Assembly: GCF_000316575.1 (NCBI RefSeq)
Contig: NC_019682.1
Location: 3,284,001-3,348,000 of the forward strand
From: Calothrix sp. PCC 7507
GTDB lineage: Bacteria > Cyanobacteriota > Cyanobacteriia > Cyanobacteriales > Nostocaceae
Length of the DNA: 64,000 bases
Direction of reading: 5' to 3'
Both the position numbers and the translations under genes were made by a program. How positions within the stretch are numbered: the stretch's first letter is position 1; the number at the start of each line of letters is the position of its first letter. Shown here piece after piece: positions 4,008 to 17,534 of the stretch. The notes under the pieces are model-generated. The model did no database searches, was not told where the DNA came from, and worked only from the letters and a program-made list of their open reading frames with translations.

Positions 4008-4832
4008 CTAAACAGTTCTTTGGTGAGAAACACCAACGTAACTTCTTACTGCTGTTTTTTGTCGCTGATGGCGTCGATTAATTAGATAACCGTCAGTTTT
4101 AAACCACCACCATAGCTTAACGAAATCTATAGCTGAAGTGAAAAGACGCTTTTTACCAAATTTAGTTGTTCCAGCATAACGAGGATGCCAAGGTGTAGCA
4201 ACTTCTGTAATGTTATATCCCTGTGCTGCTAGTACGGCTAATAAATAGCGATGGGTAACTTTTTCTATGGGTAAAGTCAGTAATAAATCTCGACGAACTA
4301 GTTTTATCCAGTTCATATCATGGATTTTTAACCCAAAAAGTAACCGACAAGCTAAGTTAGCAAATTTAGATGCAAAAATTTTGCCATCTCCACGCTTTTG
4401 TCGCCAACCTGCAACTGCATCACATTCTGATGTACAAGCTTTTAAGAGTAATGGCAAATCCGTCCGGGGATCAGACTCTAAATCTGCTTGTCCCCAAAAT
4501 ATCCAATCAGTTTTTACATAGGCTAAAGCTGTTTTCCATACCCCCGTAACACCTTGTCTTTGGGAATGACGAACAATTTTTAAAAATGTATATTCTTTGC
4601 TCAGGCTATCGAGAATTTCTGGGCTATCATCTGTACTACCATCATCAATTAGCAGCACAGGTAAAGTAAATTCAAGGTTCTGGAAAGTTTCTTGCAGAGT
4701 CAATAAAAGCTTTTCTAGATTACCTGCCTCATTAAAGGAAGGAATTACTACTGTAACGGAACGACTTAGTTGTAAGTTTGTAGATGAAAAAATTGATTCT
4801 CTTTCTAATAAATTGGTAGCATTTTGAGACAT
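4008..4832 (-). CDS. Family 2 glycosyltransferase
   Basis: A 274-residue GT-A fold glycosyltransferase. After a 25-residue leader it shows VTVVIPSFNEAGNLEKLL and the first aspartate motif LLIDDGSTDDS, then WGQADLESDP as the equivalent of the DXD metal and nucleotide-sugar site. No clear membrane segments follow, unlike DPM/GtrB relatives. A GTG lies nine bases further out (4841), but the ATG at 4832 has AAGGTG at the right distance, so I prefer it. The gene is divergent from the histidine kinase gene across a 603-base gap. Polyprenyl-phosphate or envelope glycan synthesis is likely; the exact sugar is unknown. Confidence 0.85.
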   Translation of the reverse strand: MSQNATNLLERESIFSSTNLQLSRSVTVVIPSFNEAGNLEKLLLTLQETFQNLEFTLPVLLIDDGSTDDSPEILDSLSKEYTFLKIVRHSQRQGVTGVWKTALAYVKTDWIFWGQADLESDPRTDLPLLLKACTSECDAVAGWRQKRGDGKIFASKFANLACRLLFGLKIHDMNWIKLVRRDLLLTLPIEKVTHRYLLAVLAAQGYNITEVATPWHPRYAGTTKFGKKRLFTSAIDFVKLWWWFKTDGYLINRRHQRQKTAVRSYVGVSHQRTV

Positions 4833-5435
4833 TTTTATCACCTTGAAAGCATTTTATTGTTATACGAATGCACCCATAATGCTTTAACTGATATCCATGC
4901 AATATCAACTTCAGTTTCAATCCAATCAAGTTGCTATATTCTTGTATGAGTAGATAGATTGATAATGAATTAAAAATATTCATGTCAATATCTATTCATT
5001 TAGGAGGGTTATTCAATACTCAGTCAATAAATTTGTACAGTCATATTTCTTGAATCGATGAAACTAAAAAATCCAGCAGAATAATGTCTAATCAGCTGGT
5101 AGTAAATTAAAGCGTTTTATGGAAATAGTTATCAGATGTGACAATCTTTAATATCTCTTGTAACTCGCCTAAACATTTCCTGATTTTTTTATTGCTATCA
5201 CTATTAAAATTTAACCTTGATTAAAAATATATTGCTGCGGTGAAACTACTTAAAAATAAAAAAATATTGCTAAAAATTTTAGGTTAAAATATTTTGATTT
5301 TAGGTATAAAAAAAATCTTTTATACCGTTATATCTAACAATACCTTTGCTCGTAGTTACAACCAAGACCAACTCAAGTTAGCGACTATATAAAGTAAAGG
5401 TAATGAGTTAACATTTCTCCAGAAAATTCCCAAAT
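4833..5435. other. A/T-rich divergent intergenic region with a perfect 9-bp inverted repeat
   Basis: No convincing gene is seen. It must hold the promoters of the minus-strand glycosyltransferase gene and the plus-strand histidine kinase gene. A perfect inverted repeat pairs 5303-5311 with 5318-5326 (GGTATAAAA against TTTTATACC, six-base loop), about 110 bases before the kinase start. It could be an operator or a transcript hairpin. Short frames here are not gene-like. Confidence 0.4.
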
Positions 5436-9800: not shown

Positions 9801-9997
9801 AATCGTTGGGGTTGACAGTTGTTAAAATATTATTGGGAATGCTAGTCTCACATTTAAGCGCATAATATCTTGATGTTTGTCTGTTTGAGGTTAAGACTCA
9901 GACTAGTAGAGTATTGATACACTATAAACAAGGACTTAATTTTAGTCTTAATCGACAATAAGAAAAGTGGTTCACTTATACAATATTTGCTTTGTTC

Positions 9998-10594
9998 ATG
10001 GTTATAGCAGCTAGTGTGATACCGTTCCTGATTAACTCTTATACTTTAGGCTCATTTCTGCCTTCCCTCCCCTTGGATAGCCTACTCTCTACCCAAGGTA
10101 TTATGGTGTTGCTACTGGCTGCCTATGCTGGTGCAATGTGGATGTTCCTCACCAGTGCGCCTAAAGTACATACTGTGATGGTGTCGGATTTGGAAATTGC
10201 GCGACAGTTGTATGAAGGGCTACTAGATTTACCAGCGGCTGAGGTGCCTTTGCACTACTACTACAACTACGAGCAAACTATAGGCGCAACAGGCATTGAT
10301 CCTCTTTATATGTCTGCAGCCCCTAGCTTCGCTGGCAGAACAATGAATAATGCCAGCGAAGGGCTATGGTATCAATTAAAGAAAAATACCCAGCTACACG
10401 TCATTACTGGAGCGAGTTTGGGTATAAAAAATCAGCAGCGCCACGTTTGCTTTGACCGCGACTGCCTAGAAATGATTTTAATGCGAGTGGAAACCCGCGG
10501 TTTAAAGTTTAAGATTCGCAACCAAAAGCCCCTTAATTTTTTGGTTAAGGATTATGAAGGGCGCATTATTGAACTGGCCGAGGTAGCGAATTAG
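9998..10594 (+). CDS. Membrane-anchored glyoxalase/VOC-fold protein
   Basis: About 198 residues. Two N-terminal hydrophobic segments (about 2-20 and 34-52) are followed by a domain that opens with VHTVMVSDLEIARQLYEGLLDLP, the typical first beta-alpha unit of the vicinal-oxygen-chelate fold. It closes with FLVKDYEGRIIELAEV, the typical last strands with a Glu in the metal position. The first metal ligand (His in VHT) and last ligand (Glu in IELAEV) are present. No known enzyme is matched specifically. The frame extends to a TTG at 9992; I use the ATG at 9998, though no strong ribosome site is visible. The membrane anchor is unusual for this fold. Confidence 0.65.
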   Translation: MVIAASVIPFLINSYTLGSFLPSLPLDSLLSTQGIMVLLLAAYAGAMWMFLTSAPKVHTVMVSDLEIARQLYEGLLDLPAAEVPLHYYYNYEQTIGATGIDPLYMSAAPSFAGRTMNNASEGLWYQLKKNTQLHVITGASLGIKNQQRHVCFDRDCLEMILMRVETRGLKFKIRNQKPLNFLVKDYEGRIIELAEVAN

Positions 10595-10715: not shown

Positions 10716-11195
10716 CTAGGTTGTTGAGCGCAGAATTTCTGCCAGCTTTTCTAGCAGTTCTTCTGCTAGGTCCAAAATCTCAATTTCATGATTATGTATA
10801 TCACTAGCATCACGGTAACTCGTAACACCTATTGCGCTACTATTTAACAAATTTTTCACAGCAAAAATTCGTTCTTCTGCTTGAGGTAAACTGAGGTATT
10901 TTTCTAACTCAGATGCAATCTCTGAGAGAGATTTGTCCACTAGCTGCTTTCTTACCCTCACAGCTACCCAGTCATCACTATGCAGGAATGTGGTTAAAAT
11001 TTCTGCTGTTTTATTTTGCTTATCTTCGTCCTCACCCCACTTTTCTAACCAATCGCTGTCTATTTCTTCAAAATATAAGTTTACACAGTCAACCCCATAA
11101 TTCATCCAATCTCTTTGCAAGTGCCTGGCTGCTTCTAAATGTTTCAGAAATTGCTCTAATCTTTCTTGAGGTTCAGTGAGTCGTTCTTTCCCCAT
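10716..11195 (-). CDS. Domain-X protein, copy 1 (unrecognised family)
   Basis: A 159-residue soluble acidic protein of no family I recognise. It is closely related to the protein encoded at 15030-15506 over its whole length, sharing DWLExWGEDED near residue 48 and SDDxVAVRVRKQL near 73. The shared blocks IFAVKN near 110 and the C-terminal EILDLAEELLEKLAE also match. Residues about 65-155 (domain X) also match the C-terminus of the XRE antitoxin at 16394-17110. It follows the A-family gene by 60 bases, the same order as the second A-X pair. The acidic helical make-up suggests a protein-interaction domain. No signal peptide or membrane segment is seen. Confidence 0.8.
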   Translation of the reverse strand: MGKERLTEPQERLEQFLKHLEAARHLQRDWMNYGVDCVNLYFEEIDSDWLEKWGEDEDKQNKTAEILTTFLHSDDWVAVRVRKQLVDKSLSEIASELEKYLSLPQAEERIFAVKNLLNSSAIGVTSYRDASDIHNHEIEILDLAEELLEKLAEILRSTT

Positions 11196-11255
11196 AATGA
11201 TTTAGTTTGGTTAAGACCTATTACTACAAAACTGGTGAACGAAAATCATTTGAGA

Positions 11256-11951
11256 CTATAGATTAAATTTTAAGTAAATGCCTGTCCTCAGATTATCACT
11301 GTTATATAGTGATACATTAACTATCTGATGCAAAAACTGGTTGATGCGCGGATTGTAACTTAAGAATAGACCTCTCTCTATACCCCACCGTTGCAGTGCC
11401 TTTTCCCAATTATCAGACTTATCTGGAGAAAATTCATCAGAGAGACTAGTCAGTTGAATGCATAATGGCTTCTTCTGTCTATTACTAATTATTATATCAG
11501 TCGCCATCGAAAAATCTGCAATATAGCACTGCCAAAAAGTGCCTTCTCGATGGACGATATCAGTAGCTATTGATTGTAGAATACTGGTATCAGCTTGATT
11601 AAACTCACCTGCCATCAGTTTTTGTTTCCAGATAAAAAACTTTGGATCAGTTTCATTTAGCCATTTGGGAAAGAGATAGCTGTACCAATAGTGTTCTGTT
11701 GGTGTCATGCGATCGTAATATTGCTGCTGCTCTTCTGCGGAAGTTAAGGCTTGAATATCTAGCCAAACTAGAGCATCCTTGATTATTTGTTGCAGAAAAA
11801 AAAGTACAAATTTTTTAGCAGTTAACGAACCGGGCTTGACATCTTTAACCCAGCGATTTATTTCATCTAGCCTTTTGGCCAAACTGGGATCTACAGCAGA
11901 CGCTTCCTTTATAAGTGAATTTAGTCTATTTTTAATCTCTTTTGCTTGCAA
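11256..11951 (-). CDS. A-family protein, copy 1 (unrecognised family)
   Basis: A 231-residue protein, equal in length to the product of 15570-16265 and about 60 percent identical to it by eye. Shared blocks are EINRWVKDVKPGSLTAK (near 30-46), KLMAGEFNQ (near 110), SMATDII (near 148), PLCIQLTS (near 161) and RGLFLSYNPR (near 193). The pair of strands ATDII and PLCIQLTS around an Asp and a Gln faintly recalls a degenerate restriction-nuclease core, but this is only an idea. The start codon is TTG, in a context conserved in the other copy (AAGG eleven bases upstream). Located 139 bases downstream of the CHAT gene. Confidence 0.78.
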   Translation of the reverse strand: MQAKEIKNRLNSLIKEASAVDPSLAKRLDEINRWVKDVKPGSLTAKKFVLFFLQQIIKDALVWLDIQALTSAEEQQQYYDRMTPTEHYWYSYLFPKWLNETDPKFFIWKQKLMAGEFNQADTSILQSIATDIVHREGTFWQCYIADFSMATDIIISNRQKKPLCIQLTSLSDEFSPDKSDNWEKALQRWGIERGLFLSYNPRINQFLHQIVNVSLYNSDNLRTGIYLKFNL

Positions 11952-12090
11952 ACAATGCTAAACCTTAAAAATTGAGTGGCTTTAGGAGCTAAAGAATATT
12001 TTATAGCATTATCAAATCAAAACCTGTATGAACGCAAAATTTCATGTCTCTATATCAGGGCTATACCTACAGACTTTGGCAAAACTACCA

Positions 12091-15012
12091 TCACCGTAAC
12101 CCTTGGCAGATAAAAGCAGCCCAGTAGCGAGGATGTAAAAATGGCAACTCTTCCGTGGAGTTTTCCATTTCTTTAATTTTTCTATTAATTCCGGCATACA
12201 TCTTATATTCACGCTCCCATTCTAAATACTCCACTGAACCAGGGTTATATTGTTTTCTCATTCTTATCAGTGATTTTTCCCTTGTTTCTGCATCTCGAAA
12301 CATTTCTTTGAAATCTTCTTTTCTCAAGGTGCGTAGTTTGATTTGGGCTTGGCGCATAGCTTCGGGACGGCTTTTACCTTGTTGTCGGAGTTGGTAGTAA
12401 AAGATGGAAAACACTGCTGTTGCTAAATCATCTACCGCCCAAAGGCTACTAACAACACTTCTTGCACCAGCACACAAAAAACCTGTAGAGAGAGTCAGAA
12501 TATCATCTGTTAGGGAAGGAGTACCCAAATTAGTTTCGCAGCAAGAGAGAAACACTTCTAGAAGTTGAGGTAAACGCCAGCTTGGTGTCATCAATTGCCC
12601 CAAGGTGATACTACCACCAGCTAATTTTAACTGTGATTCTAAAGGATTATCGAGGCGAGATTGGGCATGGTGGCAGGAATGAAGTACTTGAACTTTTTGT
12701 GCTAATTGTCGATAGTTTTTAGCAGTGGCTTGAATGCTGCCAATTAATCTATTTTCTGGCGGAATATTATACATTTGGGCGAGTTTGTCGCCTTCAAATC
12801 TGGCACAGGGAAGGTTATCCTCGGCATCTTCCACAGTTCCATATTGTAAAGATATTTCATTAAATGTCCCTACATTATCGCGTTGTTGACAAAATTCTAA
12901 AATTTGGCAACTTGGGGTATAACGAATCAGAAATTTATCTCCTAAATATTCCTGATATTCTCCTGTAGGTAAAGCAGCGAAGGGAATTTGATGTAATAAC
13001 AGATGAGGGACTACAATTATTTCCTCTATTCCTTGAAGATGTTCAGATATGAGTTGAGATATTTGAAGACGTTCAGCTAGTTCGCGGAGAATACTGTTAA
13101 TTTGAGTTTCCCATTTTTGGGAGTCATTCATATAAGGCAATAACCAATTTTGGTTAATCCAGCCTTGTAATGTATCTAATCCTTGTCCTATGCAGGTGTG
13201 GAGAGTAATTTTGTTTTGCTGCACGACAAAAATATGGGTGTCGCTATTGGTAGTGTAGAAACTGAGAATAGCTGTATTAGGCTGGTCAATTAGCTTTTGA
13301 ATTTCTGATAAGCTGAGGGGGTTAACTTGAATTTCGCCAGCTAATACGGGATCTTCGCGTCTGAGATTTTCCCAAACTTGTTGTTTTTGGGTTTCTAAAG
13401 ATGCGATCGCTTCATTATAAGCTTCCCAAGCAGCGCGTGTTTCATTACGATTATTTTCAGATTTATGACTTTGGCGTTCTTGGTCAATTTGTTGTTGCAG
13501 TTCTTCATATTGCTGCAATAATTCTTGAACTTTTGGGGGGATGTCTTCGCCTTGAGAGAGGTTGTAGCTTGCCATTAAGTCTACCAGGCGTTTGGAACGC
13601 GATCGCTCTGAATATTCAAAGGCTTTTTCTATTTGTCCAGCATTGATGCAGGCTTGCACCATATTTTGGTAAATGCCTACGGATTCTTCTAAAATCTCTT
13701 GGCGACGTGATTCAGAATGCGCCCAAGTGCGGCTGGTTTCTACGGCTTCAATGGCTAGGCGATATCCTTCAATAGCTTGTGTCCATCGACGAGCAATGAA
13801 AGTCACATTACCCAAGTTACACGCTGATTTATAACATTCAAAAGGATCTGCTGTATGTGTGTGGATTGTGAGTGCTAACTGAAAACAGATGATTGCTTCA
13901 TCAATCAGTCCTTGGTGAAAGTAAGGAACGCCCATATCGCTGTGGGTTATTGCCCATTTATATGGATACTCAAACTGAGTAAAGACTTGCAGCGCATTGT
14001 TGAAGGAAGCAATCGCACAATCCAAGTTATCAGGCTTATTGCCATGTATTCTCTCACAGTAAGCAAGTCCCTGATGTTCTTGGAGATCAGCCCATCGCTC
14101 AGGATATACAGGACGAGTATGAACTTGTAGCGCCTGTTGATATGCGGTGATTGCTAACTCTATGTTCTCAGCCTTATCACCCTGAATTCGCTTCCAGTAG
14201 ACCAGCCCCAAGCAATTTTGAGTATCCGCCCATTGTTTTGTGAAGGGGATACGAACTTGCAAAGCATTTACGAAAGCAGCAATTGCTTGCTCCTGATTTT
14301 CAGCTTGGTTGCCGTGTATCCTTTTATTTAAGGCAATGCCCAGATTATGTTGAATTGTTGCCCATTCTTCGGGAAAATGATCACGAGTATAGATTTGCAA
14401 AGCATCTTCGTAATTCCTGATTGCTTTCTCAATATTTGCTGCCCGATCCTGCCTTATCCGATGAAAGAATGCAATGCCTTGATTAGTTTTAGTTTCTGCC
14501 CATCTTTCAGGGAGTGCAGAATAGTTACGGACTTGCAATGCTGCTTCAAAACAACACAAGGCTGTTTCGAGATTTTCCAATCTATTCCCACGAATCCGAT
14601 ATAAGAAGGCTATACCCATATTGTTTTGGATTTGTGCCCACTCTTCTGGGAAAGCATCACGGGTAAAGACTGTAGTAACTACCTCGTAGCCTGCAATTGC
14701 AATCTCTAAGTTGTTAGCTTTGCTACCAAGTGGAAAATCCTGGATCAGCTTACTAAAAACAACAATAGCAGCTGCCAAGATTTGCGCTTTACCTGGCTCT
14801 ACTTGATATAATCTCGGAAATGCCCACTGATATAGCAAGTTGGCAAAATTGTCATCTAATTTGTCCAAATTTGCTTGCAGAAGTGGATATATAACTTGTG
14901 TATTGCCTTGGGTATTTGCACATTCCCATGTTATCTTTAACAGAAAATTGTTACAGTCTTCATGGCTTTGTTTAGCATTTTTAACTTTTCCACTACCGAA
15001 TCCTTTTCCCAT
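12091..15012 (-). CDS. TPR-CHAT caspase-like protease
   Basis: A 973-residue cytoplasmic protein. Residues about 95-400 hold six or more copies of a roughly 50-residue TPR-type repeat with the signature PEEWAxxQNNxGIAxxxRIxGNxxEN. A coiled coil lies near 500-550 (EELQQQIDQERQSH). The C-terminal CHAT domain (about 660-973) has the dyad candidates His782 in LHSCHHA and Cys825 in LSCCETN, followed by GARSVVSSLWAVDD. CHAT proteins are clan CD peptidases related to caspases and separase; TPR-CHAT proteins act as activated proteases in some type III CRISPR systems. No CRISPR genes are here. It starts 17 bases after domain-X copy 2, so A2-X2-CHAT forms a tight operon. The substrate is unknown; the X or A proteins are candidates by linkage. 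Confidence 0.88.
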   Translation of the reverse strand: MGKGFGSGKVKNAKQSHEDCNNFLLKITWECANTQGNTQVIYPLLQANLDKLDDNFANLLYQWAFPRLYQVEPGKAQILAAAIVVFSKLIQDFPLGSKANNLEIAIAGYEVVTTVFTRDAFPEEWAQIQNNMGIAFLYRIRGNRLENLETALCCFEAALQVRNYSALPERWAETKTNQGIAFFHRIRQDRAANIEKAIRNYEDALQIYTRDHFPEEWATIQHNLGIALNKRIHGNQAENQEQAIAAFVNALQVRIPFTKQWADTQNCLGLVYWKRIQGDKAENIELAITAYQQALQVHTRPVYPERWADLQEHQGLAYCERIHGNKPDNLDCAIASFNNALQVFTQFEYPYKWAITHSDMGVPYFHQGLIDEAIICFQLALTIHTHTADPFECYKSACNLGNVTFIARRWTQAIEGYRLAIEAVETSRTWAHSESRRQEILEESVGIYQNMVQACINAGQIEKAFEYSERSRSKRLVDLMASYNLSQGEDIPPKVQELLQQYEELQQQIDQERQSHKSENNRNETRAAWEAYNEAIASLETQKQQVWENLRREDPVLAGEIQVNPLSLSEIQKLIDQPNTAILSFYTTNSDTHIFVVQQNKITLHTCIGQGLDTLQGWINQNWLLPYMNDSQKWETQINSILRELAERLQISQLISEHLQGIEEIIVVPHLLLHQIPFAALPTGEYQEYLGDKFLIRYTPSCQILEFCQQRDNVGTFNEISLQYGTVEDAEDNLPCARFEGDKLAQMYNIPPENRLIGSIQATAKNYRQLAQKVQVLHSCHHAQSRLDNPLESQLKLAGGSITLGQLMTPSWRLPQLLEVFLSCCETNLGTPSLTDDILTLSTGFLCAGARSVVSSLWAVDDLATAVFSIFYYQLRQQGKSRPEAMRQAQIKLRTLRKEDFKEMFRDAETREKSLIRMRKQYNPGSVEYLEWEREYKMYAGINRKIKEMENSTEELPFLHPRYWAAFICQGLR

Positions 15013-15029
15013 TTTTATTTAGATAATCT

Positions 15030-15506
15030 CTAGTTATGCTTCCCAAAAAATTCTGCCAACTTCTCTAGCAGTTCCTCTGCTAAATCCAACAATTCTATTT
15101 CATCAATTTCATTACTACTTCCGCGATTACTTTCTGCAACACCCACACCACCCGCTAATACATTTTTGACAGCAAAAATCCGGTCTTCATCTTCAGATAA
15201 ACCCAGACATTGCTCCAAATCAACAGCAATTTTTTGGAGTGATTTATCTTTTAGCTGCTTTCTCACCCTCACCGCTACCAAGTCATCACTTTGCAGGAAA
15301 TTAGTCACTAATTCTACAAAACTTTGCTGACCATCTTCGTCTTCTCCCCATGTTTCTAGCCAATCCCCATCAACATCATCACAATATAAATGAGCGGCTT
15401 TAAGCCCATACTTTATGATGTCATCCTGTACTTTTTGAGCAGCTTCTACAGCTTGTAAAAAGTTGTCTAATCTCTGTTGACGGTCAGATTGTTTTTCCTG
15501 AACCAT
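15030..15506 (-). CDS. Domain-X protein, copy 2
   Basis: A 158-residue paralogue of the 10716-11195 protein. N-terminal residues 8-35 are helical and Gln-rich. Residues 48-58 read DWLETWGEDED, and domain X spans about 64-152 with SDDLVAVRVRKQL, EDRIFAVKN and EIELLDLAEELLEKLAE. Copy 2 is closer to the X domain of the antitoxin at 16394-17110 than copy 1 is: both share VAESNRGSS and the LSExEDRIFAVKN block. It lies between the A2 gene (63 bases upstream) and the CHAT protease gene (17 bases downstream). Function unknown; partner or substrate of the protease is an inference from linkage. Confidence 0.82.
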   Translation of the reverse strand: MVQEKQSDRQQRLDNFLQAVEAAQKVQDDIIKYGLKAAHLYCDDVDGDWLETWGEDEDGQQSFVELVTNFLQSDDLVAVRVRKQLKDKSLQKIAVDLEQCLGLSEDEDRIFAVKNVLAGGVGVAESNRGSSNEIDEIELLDLAEELLEKLAEFFGKHN

Positions 15507-15569
15507 AAGGACTCACTTTGTTAAGTAATAACTGGCTATATAAATCCAGTAAATGCAATTGAACGACAA

Positions 15570-16265
15570 CTATAAATTAAGTTTTAAATAACTACCTCTA
15601 ATGAGATTGTCGCTGTTAGATAATAATATGTTGACTATCTGATTTACAAAATCAGTTGCACGGGGATTGTAACTTAAAAATAATCCTCTATCTATTGCCC
15701 AAAAAATTAGTGTATTTTCCCAATCATCAAACTTTTCTTGAGAAAATTCATCTGAGACGCTAGTGAGTTGAATACATAGTGGACTCTCTTGCGTACTGCT
15801 AACAATTATATCAGTTGCCATAGACAGGTCTGCAACATATCGTAATACAGTCGTACCACCAGAAGTTTTAATATTATTAGCAATAGAGCCAATTAATTTG
15901 GCATCCTCCTGATTGAACTCCCCCGCCATTAGTTTTCGTCTCCAGATATAAAATTTAGGGTCGTTTTCACTCAACCATGTAGGAAACAAGTAGCCATACC
16001 AATATTTTAAAGTTGGATTCAGCGCTGTTAAAGCTGATTGCTGCTCTTCTTCAGATGGTAATGATTTAAGTCTCAGCCAAACCTCAGCATCTTGGAGCAT
16101 TTGTTGCAAAAACAGGATGACAAATCTTTTAGCAGTCAGCGAACCCGGTTTGACATCTTTCACCCAGCGATTTATCTCTTCTAACCTTTTCGCTAAATCA
16201 GGATCTATGACAGATGCTTCCTCTATAAGTAATCTTAATTGTTTTTTAATTTCTTTGGCTTGCAA
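15570..16265 (-). CDS. A-family protein, copy 2
   Basis: A 231-residue paralogue of the 11256-11951 protein with the same TTG start and a GAGG element eleven bases upstream. Conserved blocks are the same (EINRWVKDVKPGSLTAKRF, RRKLMAGEFNQ, LSMATDIIVSS, PLCIQLTSVSDEFS, RGLFLSYNPRA). The N-terminal 70 residues are predicted helical, the C-terminal half alpha/beta. It is the first gene of the A2-X2-CHAT unit. The 128-base gap to the antitoxin gene upstream may hold a separate promoter, but I see no clear motif. No known family recognised. Confidence 0.8.
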   Translation of the reverse strand: MQAKEIKKQLRLLIEEASVIDPDLAKRLEEINRWVKDVKPGSLTAKRFVILFLQQMLQDAEVWLRLKSLPSEEEQQSALTALNPTLKYWYGYLFPTWLSENDPKFYIWRRKLMAGEFNQEDAKLIGSIANNIKTSGGTTVLRYVADLSMATDIIVSSTQESPLCIQLTSVSDEFSQEKFDDWENTLIFWAIDRGLFLSYNPRATDFVNQIVNILLSNSDNLIRGSYLKLNL

Positions 16266-16393: not shown

Positions 16394-17110
16394 TCATCCT
16401 AAAATATTTGCCAACTTCTCCAGCAGACTCTCAGCTAAATCCAACAACTCAATTTCATCAACTTCATCACTACTACTTCCGCGATTACTTTCTGCAATCG
16501 CCTCACTACCCACTAATATATTTTTGACAGCAAAAATCCTATCTTCTTCCTCCGAAAGACTCAGACATTTTTCCAAATCTACAGCAACTTCTTGGATTGT
16601 CCTTACACCCAAACGTTCTCTCACTTTCACCGCTACCGAATCATCACTTTCCAGCAGTTTTACCAAAGCTGTTCTCAGTCCATCATCCCCACCAGAAAAC
16701 TTCTCAACGGCTACACGCACATATTCGCGCACGCTCATGTTTGCCGCCAATGCCTTTTGGAAAACTACATCTGGTACATCTACCAGCAATACACCTTCGT
16801 TATCACTGGCTTGATATAAGTCATCCCCTTGTTTGACGGCTACTAGCAAATCTGCACCCAATGTATGTAAATAGTGCAACACTGATTCCAATTCATGTTC
16901 CTTTAACGCCGACTCCAGTTTGGACACCGCCGCTTGCTGCACTCCCAGTTTTTCTGCTAGCTGTGCCTGAGTTAATCCGGCTTTATTACGTATTTCCCGC
17001 ATGGCATCGGTGAGATATAGGCGCAGGTACTCTAACTTTCCCGCCAGAATTACCTCTGGTTCGTCGCTTACCTTTTGCTGTAACCAAGCTTGAAAATTAG
17101 GCTTTTTCAT
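16394..17110 (-). CDS. XRE-family antitoxin fused to domain X
   Basis: A 238-residue protein. Residues about 36-66 form a Cro/C1-type helix-turn-helix (AGLTQAQLAEKLGVQQAAVSKLE), placed as in HigA-type antitoxins. A middle region (about 85-140) is alpha/beta. Residues about 147-238 match domain X of the two stand-alone proteins (SDDSVAVKVRERL, EDRIFAVKN, ESNRGSS, EIELLDLAESLLEKLA). Its ATG overlaps the stop of the restored toxin frame by four bases (ATGA), the standard arrangement for translationally coupled toxin-antitoxin genes. Such antitoxins repress their own promoter; a perfect palindrome upstream of the toxin gene is the likely operator. The toxin is frameshifted, so the antitoxin may have been retained for the X domain. 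Confidence 0.85.
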   Translation of the reverse strand: MKKPNFQAWLQQKVSDEPEVILAGKLEYLRLYLTDAMREIRNKAGLTQAQLAEKLGVQQAAVSKLESALKEHELESVLHYLHTLGADLLVAVKQGDDLYQASDNEGVLLVDVPDVVFQKALAANMSVREYVRVAVEKFSGGDDGLRTALVKLLESDDSVAVKVRERLGVRTIQEVAVDLEKCLSLSEEEDRIFAVKNILVGSEAIAESNRGSSSDEVDEIELLDLAESLLEKLANILG

Positions 17111-17505
17111 GACTTTTCCCTCTGCTGCAATTCACTCAATCTCACTCTTGCAGGTTCTTTGTCTCTTTCTTTGATAGCACCGTCGTATTTCTTCATAAAG
17201 GCGTGCAGCACCACAAGCCTCTGAGGAGTCAGCCGTTAAGATAAACCGTGGATTATGTTGGCTCTTAGTCATGCGTAACTCATAAAAATCATCTTCCAGT
17301 TTCTCAAAGATGCCACTGGTAAGTGATGCGAGTCCTTTATTACACAGGTAGCCAAGATTTACTTGCAGACGCTTGGGGTTTCGCAAGCACTCAGTAATGG
17401 TTTTGGTGGATTTTCTGGTTGTTCCTGTTCTGGAATCATCCTGATAAAAAAAGCCAGCAAATCTTTAGGGATTTCCCCATTGACATCTTGATAAAGTTCC
17501 CACAT
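17107..17505 (-). pseudogene. RelE/HigB (Gp49-like) toxin, broken by frameshifts
   Basis: Three reading-frame pieces together give a typical toxin of about 130 residues. The start, with ATG at 17505 and an AGGAAG ribosome site, reads MWELYQDVNGEIPKD. The middle, in a second frame, reads LEDDFYELRMTKSQHNPRF and LTADSSE. The end, in a third frame from about 17222, reads LVVLHAFMKKYDGAIKERDK and ends at 17107. FYELR and VVLHAFMKK are the hallmarks of phage-derived Gp49-like/HigB ribosome-dependent mRNA interferases. The first shift lies between about 17386 and 17460 (near T7 and A4 runs), the second near 17222. Either the gene is dead or the assembly has two errors. The restored stop overlaps the antitoxin start. 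Confidence 0.75.
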
Positions 17506-17534
17506 CTAAGTCACTTCCTACCTCACAATATAAT

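Follow-up and report, generated by a model that had tools for sequence, protein, structure and literature searches.

A portable C-terminal tail at TPR-CHAT protease loci of cyanobacteria suggests protease-gated toxin-antitoxin cassettes

The 64,000 nucleotides (nt) of Calothrix sp. PCC 7507 analysed here (GCF_000316575.1, NC_019682.1, positions 3,284,001-3,348,000 of the forward strand; the whole stretch is called the window) hold a gene for a TPR-CHAT protease flanked by two copies of a gene pair that we call A and X. The five open reading frames (ORFs) follow each other on the minus strand in the order A2-X2-CHAT-A1-X1, with gaps of 63, 17, 139 and 60 nt, just as an earlier sequence-only reading had placed them (Table 1). 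That reading had also put the identity of the two A proteins, each of 231 residues, at about 60% and had called the X proteins (158 and 159 residues) alike; we measured 64% between A1 and A2 and 52% between X1 and X2. The unit runs on upstream of position 16265 with an XRE-type helix-turn-helix (HTH) protein and then a HigB-like gene. The last ~100 residues of this HTH protein repeat the C-terminal half of X for a third time, with 59% identity to X2 over residues 54-157 of the latter. The HigB-like gene of the window has in-frame stops, while its HigA-type partner stays open, and in relatives such as loci L124 and L125 it is open at 135-137 residues (loci carry L numbers here and genomes G numbers). 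In relatives the two genes qualify as a HigBA pair, a Gp49/HigB toxin followed by an HTH antitoxin, with PF05973 above cut-off in L124 and HTH_3 present; they overlap by 4 nt in L284 and L124. The Gp49 call was made by Pfam in L124, and the remaining HigB-like calls by length and likeness.

Table 1. Positions of the genes and modules of the unit within the window
Feature	Position	Strand	Remarks
A2, N-terminal helical and C-terminal restriction-endonuclease-like domain; predicted toxin (nuclease-like)	15570-16265	-	231 residues; family without description
A2 residues 122-231, predicted alpha/beta domain with conserved D146, S148-M149, D152, Q166-x-T168 and K178	15573-15902	-	
X2, predicted antitoxin / CHAT adaptor (X-N + X-C)	15030-15506	-	158 residues
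X-N module of X2, residues 1-58, A-paired part	15333-15506	-	
X-C module of X2, residues 63-158, common to other CHAT-linked proteins	15033-15320	-	
X2 loop, residues 119-132 with Arg128, candidate CHAT cleavage site	15111-15152	-	AF2 pLDDT < 50 for 121-132
TPR-CHAT protease, predicted catalytic His782/Cys825	12091-15012	-	973 residues
A1, second A; lineage that relatives also carry here, some with and some without CHAT	11256-11951	-	231 residues
X1, second X; X-N 11022-11195, X-C about 10719-11009, loop Arg128	10716-11195	-	159 residues
HigA-type XRE HTH protein with C-terminal X-C (about 16397-16696)	16394-17110	-	from Pfam and sequence comparison
HigB-like (Gp49/DUF891) toxin gene, broken frame	17110-17514	-	intact relatives e.g. 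L124, L125

In Pfam the protease matches the CHAT domain PF12770 with 133.2 bits (cut-off 24; E 1.7e-38) and TPR_12 with 38.9 bits (cut-off 30.1), which places it among TPR-CHAT proteins. Its His782 and Cys825, described before as intact, align with His585 and Cys627 of Csx29, which are named as catalytic in PMC9729208 (papers are cited here from excerpts), and among 27 CHAT relatives the histidine is kept in 24 and the cysteine in 25. With the Csx29 model of NCBIfam (NF041237) the window protein reached 77.2 bits against a cut-off of 300 and so falls outside that family. Peptidase_C14 (p20) is not among the 13 Pfam families listed for it, which sets it apart from orthocaspase-type proteases.

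X is built of two modules, X-N (its first ~58 residues) and X-C (its last ~95), and the AF2 (AlphaFold2) model of X2 is helical throughout, with a predicted local distance difference test score (pLDDT) of 75. X-C recurs as a portable tail, carried by proteins whose genes stand upstream of CHAT genes of a single TPR-CHAT clade. It also forms the C-terminus of HigA-type proteins (L118, L130, L137, L139, L145, L146, L284), of DUF1822-type proteins before TPR-CHAT (L263, L264, L266, L268, L280, L282, L285) and of a 196-residue protein without known family, again before TPR-CHAT (L279/L120, L281). Before CHAT, X-C is thus joined to four types of module, each of which, where found, has a gene of its own just upstream: A, the HigB-like gene, a ~230-residue gene before DUF1822 (386 residues in L268), and a 127-residue gene without family. 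These distributions suggest that X-C, not whole X or A, is the part linked to CHAT. A profile of X-C found nothing meaningful among PDB chains (best E 0.94, not to Csx30).

The same link was seen from the side of the protease, in 70 genomes of the order with 32 places other than the window's own at E <= 1e-100, three of which start at a contig end. Nine of the ten testable CHATs with at least 740 bits in the CHAT search of genomes have X-C within two genes upstream, versus one of the 19 below that score (L268); divided instead at a whole-ORF BLASTP score of at least 840 bits, the counts are eight of ten versus two of the 19 others (L266 and L268). The CHAT of L290/G401 belongs to the distant group by genome-search bits and, at 900 bits by whole ORF, to the near group. 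In these counts the X-C of L286 is a weak one (E 7e-5), L292 is scored as lacking because its X-C protein lies 930 nt before CHAT with two opposite-strand ORFs between, four of the 19 distant CHATs (L293, L294, L295, L299) have only 0.5-1.1 kb of sequence upstream, and L308, a duplicate of L264, is left out.

Several X-C proteins can stand in one run before a single CHAT, as they do in the window: an HTH-X-C protein and then the 127/196-residue pair in L281 (2531-4313), and an X-C protein and then A and X in L286 (1982-3785). The 127-residue gene overlaps its 196-residue X-C partner by 4 nt before TPR-CHAT (L279, 3847-4817; L281, 3343-4313). Toxin-antitoxin gene pairs often overlap, and by sequence these two genes are a candidate new pair of toxin-antitoxin-like kind. 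We also considered the ~230-residue gene before DUF1822 as a sigma factor. A firm assignment is unsupported, the best Pfam match being Sigma70_r4_2 at E 0.1, and BLASTP gave no match between this gene and the window's own sigma-like gene; by analogy, the set of ~230-residue gene, DUF1822-X-C and TPR-CHAT resembles the sigma/anti-sigma/CHAT logic of type III-E systems, and the gene is possibly sigma-like. On the protease itself, residue 706 (window 12895-12897) is acidic in 24 of 26 X-C-linked CHATs versus fewer than 30% of 22 unlinked ones, which makes it a possible X-C interface or substrate pocket.

Within X-C, residues 121-132 of the X2 model fall below pLDDT 50 and include Arg128 (AESNR-G), and residue 128 of X1 is also an arginine (TSYR-D); judging by the model, the loop around Arg128 is probably flexible. 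The loop arginine is present in all 27 distinct scored X-C copies that have a same-strand CHAT starting at most 900 nt downstream (12/12 clusters at 70% identity), and only one other column is likewise invariant among them. It is present in 28 of the 90 X-C copies without such a CHAT (17/51 clusters), a set that includes three unreadable loops (L117, L267, L269) and in which the rest mostly have shorter loops. Seven of these 28 do precede a CHAT, six of them beyond 900 nt (the HTH protein of the window, L124, L125, L281, L286, L292) and the seventh, L094, before a CHAT fragment at a contig end. A CHAT that lies upstream only goes with the arginine in five of six cases. The X of L286 just before CHAT is under the score cut and outside the 27, and its loop arginine is present by eye. 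If proteins bearing X-N are taken alone, the arginine is found in 10/10 before CHAT versus 20/80 others. The solid part of this evidence is the invariance of the arginine across four different N-terminal modules.

The sequence-only reading had recognised neither A nor X, and our searches agree: Pfam, NCBIfam, PADLOC and PHROGs yielded weak, scattered matches alone, and sequence searches of PDB nothing meaningful. In the AF2 model of A (pLDDT 91), a helical domain at the N-terminus is followed by an alpha/beta domain at the C-terminus. In an alignment of 28 diverse A proteins, D146, D152, Q166 and K178 are invariant and T168 nearly so, giving a motif D152...Q166-x-T168 with K178 in the next helix, which departs from the canonical D...(D/E)xK. 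When the model was compared with PDB by Foldseek, 13 of the first 18 rows were restriction, repair or CRISPR-ancillary nucleases, among them BsaWI, VRR_NUC, NucS, MUS81, EcoO109I, Ecl18kI, BamHI, Can2, Cdn1 and EndoMS, which we take to be PD-(D/E)xK enzymes. The best E was 0.034, and VRR_NUC had a probability of 0.80 and a TMt of 0.55. The model thus points, with weak statistics, to a restriction-like fold, and A may be a nuclease of an unusual kind or an inactive one.

X-N is the part of X that goes with A. A survey of 388 cyanobacterial genomes (A at E <= 0.001, X-N at E <= 0.01) found matches to A in 41, to X-N in 46 and to X-C in 34. X-N occurs somewhere in 41/41 genomes with A, and A in 41/46 genomes with X-N, the five X-N-only genomes having matches that are weak, short or at a contig start; co-occurrence here is counted per genome, and the genes need not be neighbours (e.g. 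G063). At the level of genes, X-N follows A in 125/125 distinct A genes of at least 180 residues with contig room, at a median gap of 57 nt. This count covers loci L064-L202 and the window, with two more A genes at contig ends and five A fragments set aside, and as these loci were mostly chosen for holding A, the genome-level figures are the less biased. The pairing exceeds chance, and A and X, two small, tightly linked and co-found genes, have the linkage looked for in type II toxin-antitoxin pairs.

Conversely, seven of the 132 distinct X-N proteins have no A just upstream. Among these A-less copies are some that look decayed (L116, L117, L119 and a fragment in L139); the X genes of L116, L117 and L119 have broken frames, and neither A nor CHAT was found alongside them. 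Bare X-N proteins of 63, 71 and 73 residues occur at A loci, and their size is antitoxin-like. Elsewhere, X-N is fused to RNase III (L075, L076; with NCH2 as well in L075), to an M78 peptidase (L104), to the C-terminal part of DUF1822 (L097, L098) and to an AAA_21 ATPase (L113, where no A stands just upstream). These fusions suggest that X-N may be a general recruiting module. By eye, L102 and L106 resemble L104.

The two A-X pairs of the window had been read as a local duplication that let the copies diverge as sensors or baits. The A tree speaks against this. A2-X2 groups with the CHAT-linked pairs of L124-L126, all of which stand just before CHAT, and A1-X1 with copies from relatives of which some have CHAT and some do not (the second copy of L126, L137, L138, L140, L144-L146). 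Tandem duplication is ruled out by these separate lineages, and the two pairs appear from the tree to be two older lineages brought together; judging by its model, A is also more readily taken for a restriction-fold (toxin-like) protein than for a bait. In 21 of the 79 named loci, A-X stands with three neighbours of the window, a 561-residue gene upstream, which we take to be lysyl-tRNA synthetase, and a 200-residue and a sigma-like gene downstream, whether or not CHAT is present. The tree and these neighbours together suggest that a CHAT-linked A-X (or HigBA-X-C) unit joined a resident A-X. The 200-residue gene (window 9992-10594) has no Pfam match, and relatives of it occur in 24 of the 79 named loci.

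Most A-X pairs stand apart from the protease. Only 16 of 95 distinct pairs have an adjacent CHAT (ten downstream, six upstream) and 79 have none, L094 being counted among the 79; neither whole A nor whole X is therefore dedicated to the protease. The earlier proposal that X and/or A are dedicated partners of CHAT is thus narrowed: X looks like a partner, through X-C. The same reading had named two outcomes that would speak against it; A and X mostly without a CHAT gene nearby is what we find, and a place for both in well-described families is not.

We considered mobile or phage carriage of A-X and rejected it: plasmid records numbered three for A and one for X. Searches of phage records gave no A-X match below E 0.8, and of 99 pattern matches in viral contigs scanned for A, none was confirmed as A. 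In PHROGs, X has a weak match to phrog_10879 (a 70-residue profile; E 0.0034, X residues 26-60). A 54-kb phage-like contig from IMG/VR (IMGVR_UViG_3300033080_000004; L309) carries two bare X-N genes in tandem, which overlap and encode 59 and 52 residues (4826-5005 and 4989-5147). The parts of this contig examined hold phage-type genes (phrog_7203, phrog_33479, a DNA polymerase processivity factor, weak virion and tape-measure matches), and no A was detected on it, although the record may be a fragment, so that the empty result proves little. It is a single record, to which further viral scans added no other; by their sequence the two genes are possible phage-borne decoy antitoxins.

Building on the gene architecture, the X-N/A and X-C/CHAT linkages, the restriction-like fold computed for A and the invariant loop arginine, we hypothesize that the locus encodes a toxin-antitoxin cassette gated by a protease, a reading that we believe about as much as we doubt. 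In this scheme A would be a restriction-fold toxin kept inactive by X-N, and X-C a docking tail recognised by the TPR-CHAT protease. Some trigger, for which phage infection is our guess, would switch on CHAT, which would then cut X within its flexible loop, at the conserved Arg128 or close to it. The cut would strip the last helix of X-C, destabilise X and free A to damage nucleic acid. Toxicity of A, its neutralisation by X-N, its release through cleavage by CHAT and a role in defence are thus what we infer for the locus. As the same tail is found on HigA-type, DUF1822 and 196-residue proteins, one kind of protease could gate several unrelated partner/inhibitor pairs, and in filamentous cyanobacteria a shared inhibitor tail probably lets the protease destroy inhibitors and so free a toxin. 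A bolder version, which we lean against but take seriously, would have X-C as a portable cleavage tag, recognised by CHAT, through which any inhibitor/partner pair (A, HigB, the possible sigma-like genes, the 127-residue protein) becomes a caspase/separase-triggered switch, forming a modular, apoptosis-like circuit in multicellular cyanobacteria that phages answer with bare X-N decoys.

The strongest competitor to a gated toxin turns the direction of the signal around: A, with a restriction fold but no catalysis, would sense nucleic acid that is foreign or damaged, X would bridge A (through X-N) to CHAT (through X-C), and CHAT would be the effector, acting on other targets, with the other X-C proteins plugging in other sensors or regulators. 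The motif of A, which has Q166-x-T168 in place of the canonical ExK lysine, would suit such a sensor; so would the linking of varied N-terminal modules, HTH and DUF1822 included, to the same CHAT clade by X-C, and the fusions of X-N to RNase III, M78 and AAA_21 are as expected of a recruiting domain. However, the 79 A-X pairs kept without an adjacent CHAT mean that A must often work without the protease, the first gene is a HigB-like toxin in one of the four module types, and the 127/196-residue pair overlaps in toxin-antitoxin fashion. An invariant arginine in a probably flexible loop also fits cleavage better than binding alone, and we regard a relay from sensor to protease as somewhat unlikely.

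That the tail is borne by HigA-type proteins, as in the SecB-dependent toxin-antitoxin-chaperone (TAC) systems (PMC6377645), could instead mean that X-C is an addiction tail and TPR-CHAT a holdase that stabilises X, with protease activity secondary; loss or titration of CHAT would then free A, much as chaperone dissociation frees the toxin in CmdTAC (PMC11618068). We consider this improbable, since the catalytic dyad is conserved in 24-25 of 27 CHAT relatives and many X proteins with X-C have no neighbouring CHAT, which indicates that bearing the tail does not by itself make a protein dependent on one. Slightly less probable still is that there is no joint function, A-X being a pair of the usual sort, passed on mostly by vertical descent, beside which CHAT merely happens to lie. 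Most A-X pairs do stand alone, and the 21 loci that keep the window's three neighbours with or without CHAT are what this would predict; against it, unrelated N-terminal modules repeatedly carry X-C before CHATs of the same clade (eight or nine of ten near versus one or two of 19 distant CHATs), and the loop arginine is found in 27 of 27.

Several points weigh against the gated cassette itself, beginning with the 79 pairs that have no CHAT beside them. Two near CHATs lack an upstream X-C (L283/G422 and L290/G401). The correlation between the arginine and CHAT is tied to phylogeny, because one CHAT-less clade of 46 holds most of the losses; an independent-pairs test gave nine pairs (any adjacent CHAT) or five (CHAT downstream) on supported branches, with a median p = 1. 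The loop arginine is also kept in four genomes (G357, G366, G212, G084) with no match to a window-type CHAT above 330 bits. In Craspase the separase residue that reads a P1 arginine corresponds to Lys670; the site reported in another Csx30 follows a leucine (PMC9729208), and no single Csx30 residue is essential for cutting (PMC10028731), so that TPR-CHATs need not read arginine. A separase-type P1 pocket as the reason for the arginine is unsupported in the window protease, which has Ala866 at the equivalent position as placed by stretching the CHAT/Csx29 alignment three residues past its end. On the structural side, no Foldseek match of A in PDB has E < 0.001 and query-length TM-scores are at most about 0.28; as its non-canonical motif also misses the usual lysine of ExK, the fold may have been called wrongly, or A may have no catalytic activity. 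The X model reaches only pLDDT 75, and Foldseek found no match for X in PDB. Finally, no trigger was identified in this analysis, and MaOC1, an orthocaspase of Microcystis, cuts its antitoxin only when this is free of toxin (PMC7935541).

If the gated cassette is right, it predicts what a non-CRISPR clade of bacterial TPR-CHAT proteases cuts, by which domain the substrate docks and where the cut falls, and it gives a simple rule, a tail on the inhibitor, by which one caspase/separase-like protease could command several toxins. The prediction is specific: X should be cut at or near Arg128 by CHAT. In the open-licence literature, as titles and abstract openings among the matches listed, we found no description of A, of X or of an antitoxin tail read by TPR-CHAT. 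What is new are A and X, two families absent from the libraries searched; protease-gated inhibitor/partner pairs are a known kind.

The cassette shares features with several such systems. As in the EAD/caspase conflict systems of multicellular bacteria (PMC8195603), small portable adaptor domains would link regulators to caspase-like and nuclease effectors, and those systems also have DUF1822 with ECF sigma genes beside EACC2-caspase; unlike them, A, X-N, X-C and CHAT are families that go unnamed in the excerpts of PMC8195603, and among proteins of the unit no NTPase match lies above the Pfam cut-off. MaOC1 likewise provides a cyanobacterial caspase-like protease gene beside a toxin-antitoxin pair: it cleaves the antitoxin, most likely at the C-terminus, and together with its RelE/ParE-type toxin-antitoxin pair is lethal to E. 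coli, an example of a caspase homologue able to set a toxin free through antitoxin cleavage (PMC7935541). The window differs in that its protease is a TPR-CHAT with no Peptidase_C14 match, its antitoxin-like proteins share a portable tail, and A-X is of an undescribed kind. With the TAC systems (HigBA-SecB, CmdTAC) it has in common a set of three genes and a C-terminal tail, which in TAC ties the antitoxin to the third protein; in the SecB-dependent ones, this extension of the antitoxin confers chaperone dependence (PMC6377645). In the window, a TPR-CHAT of protease fold takes the place of the SecB-like chaperone as third protein, the tail, some 95 residues long, forms a helical domain, and no SecB family is among the Pfam families listed for the ten window proteins scanned, which places the unit outside TAC.

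By analogy, the closest worked-out parallel is the type III-E system Csx29-Csx30-CASP-sigma (PMC10028731, PMC9729208), which also combines a TPR-CHAT protease with a partner gene in the locus of the inhibitor. The N-domain of Csx30 binds the sigma factor and its C-domain is recognised by Csx29, which cuts a flexible loop of the C-domain; shortening this loop blocks cutting (PMC10028731). The partner in the window would be a restriction-fold-like protein or a HigB-like toxin, in contrast to a proven sigma factor, and the design worked out for Csx30, a two-domain inhibitor whose N-domain holds the partner and whose C-domain, with its flexible loop, is recognised by CHAT, is the one that we predict for X.

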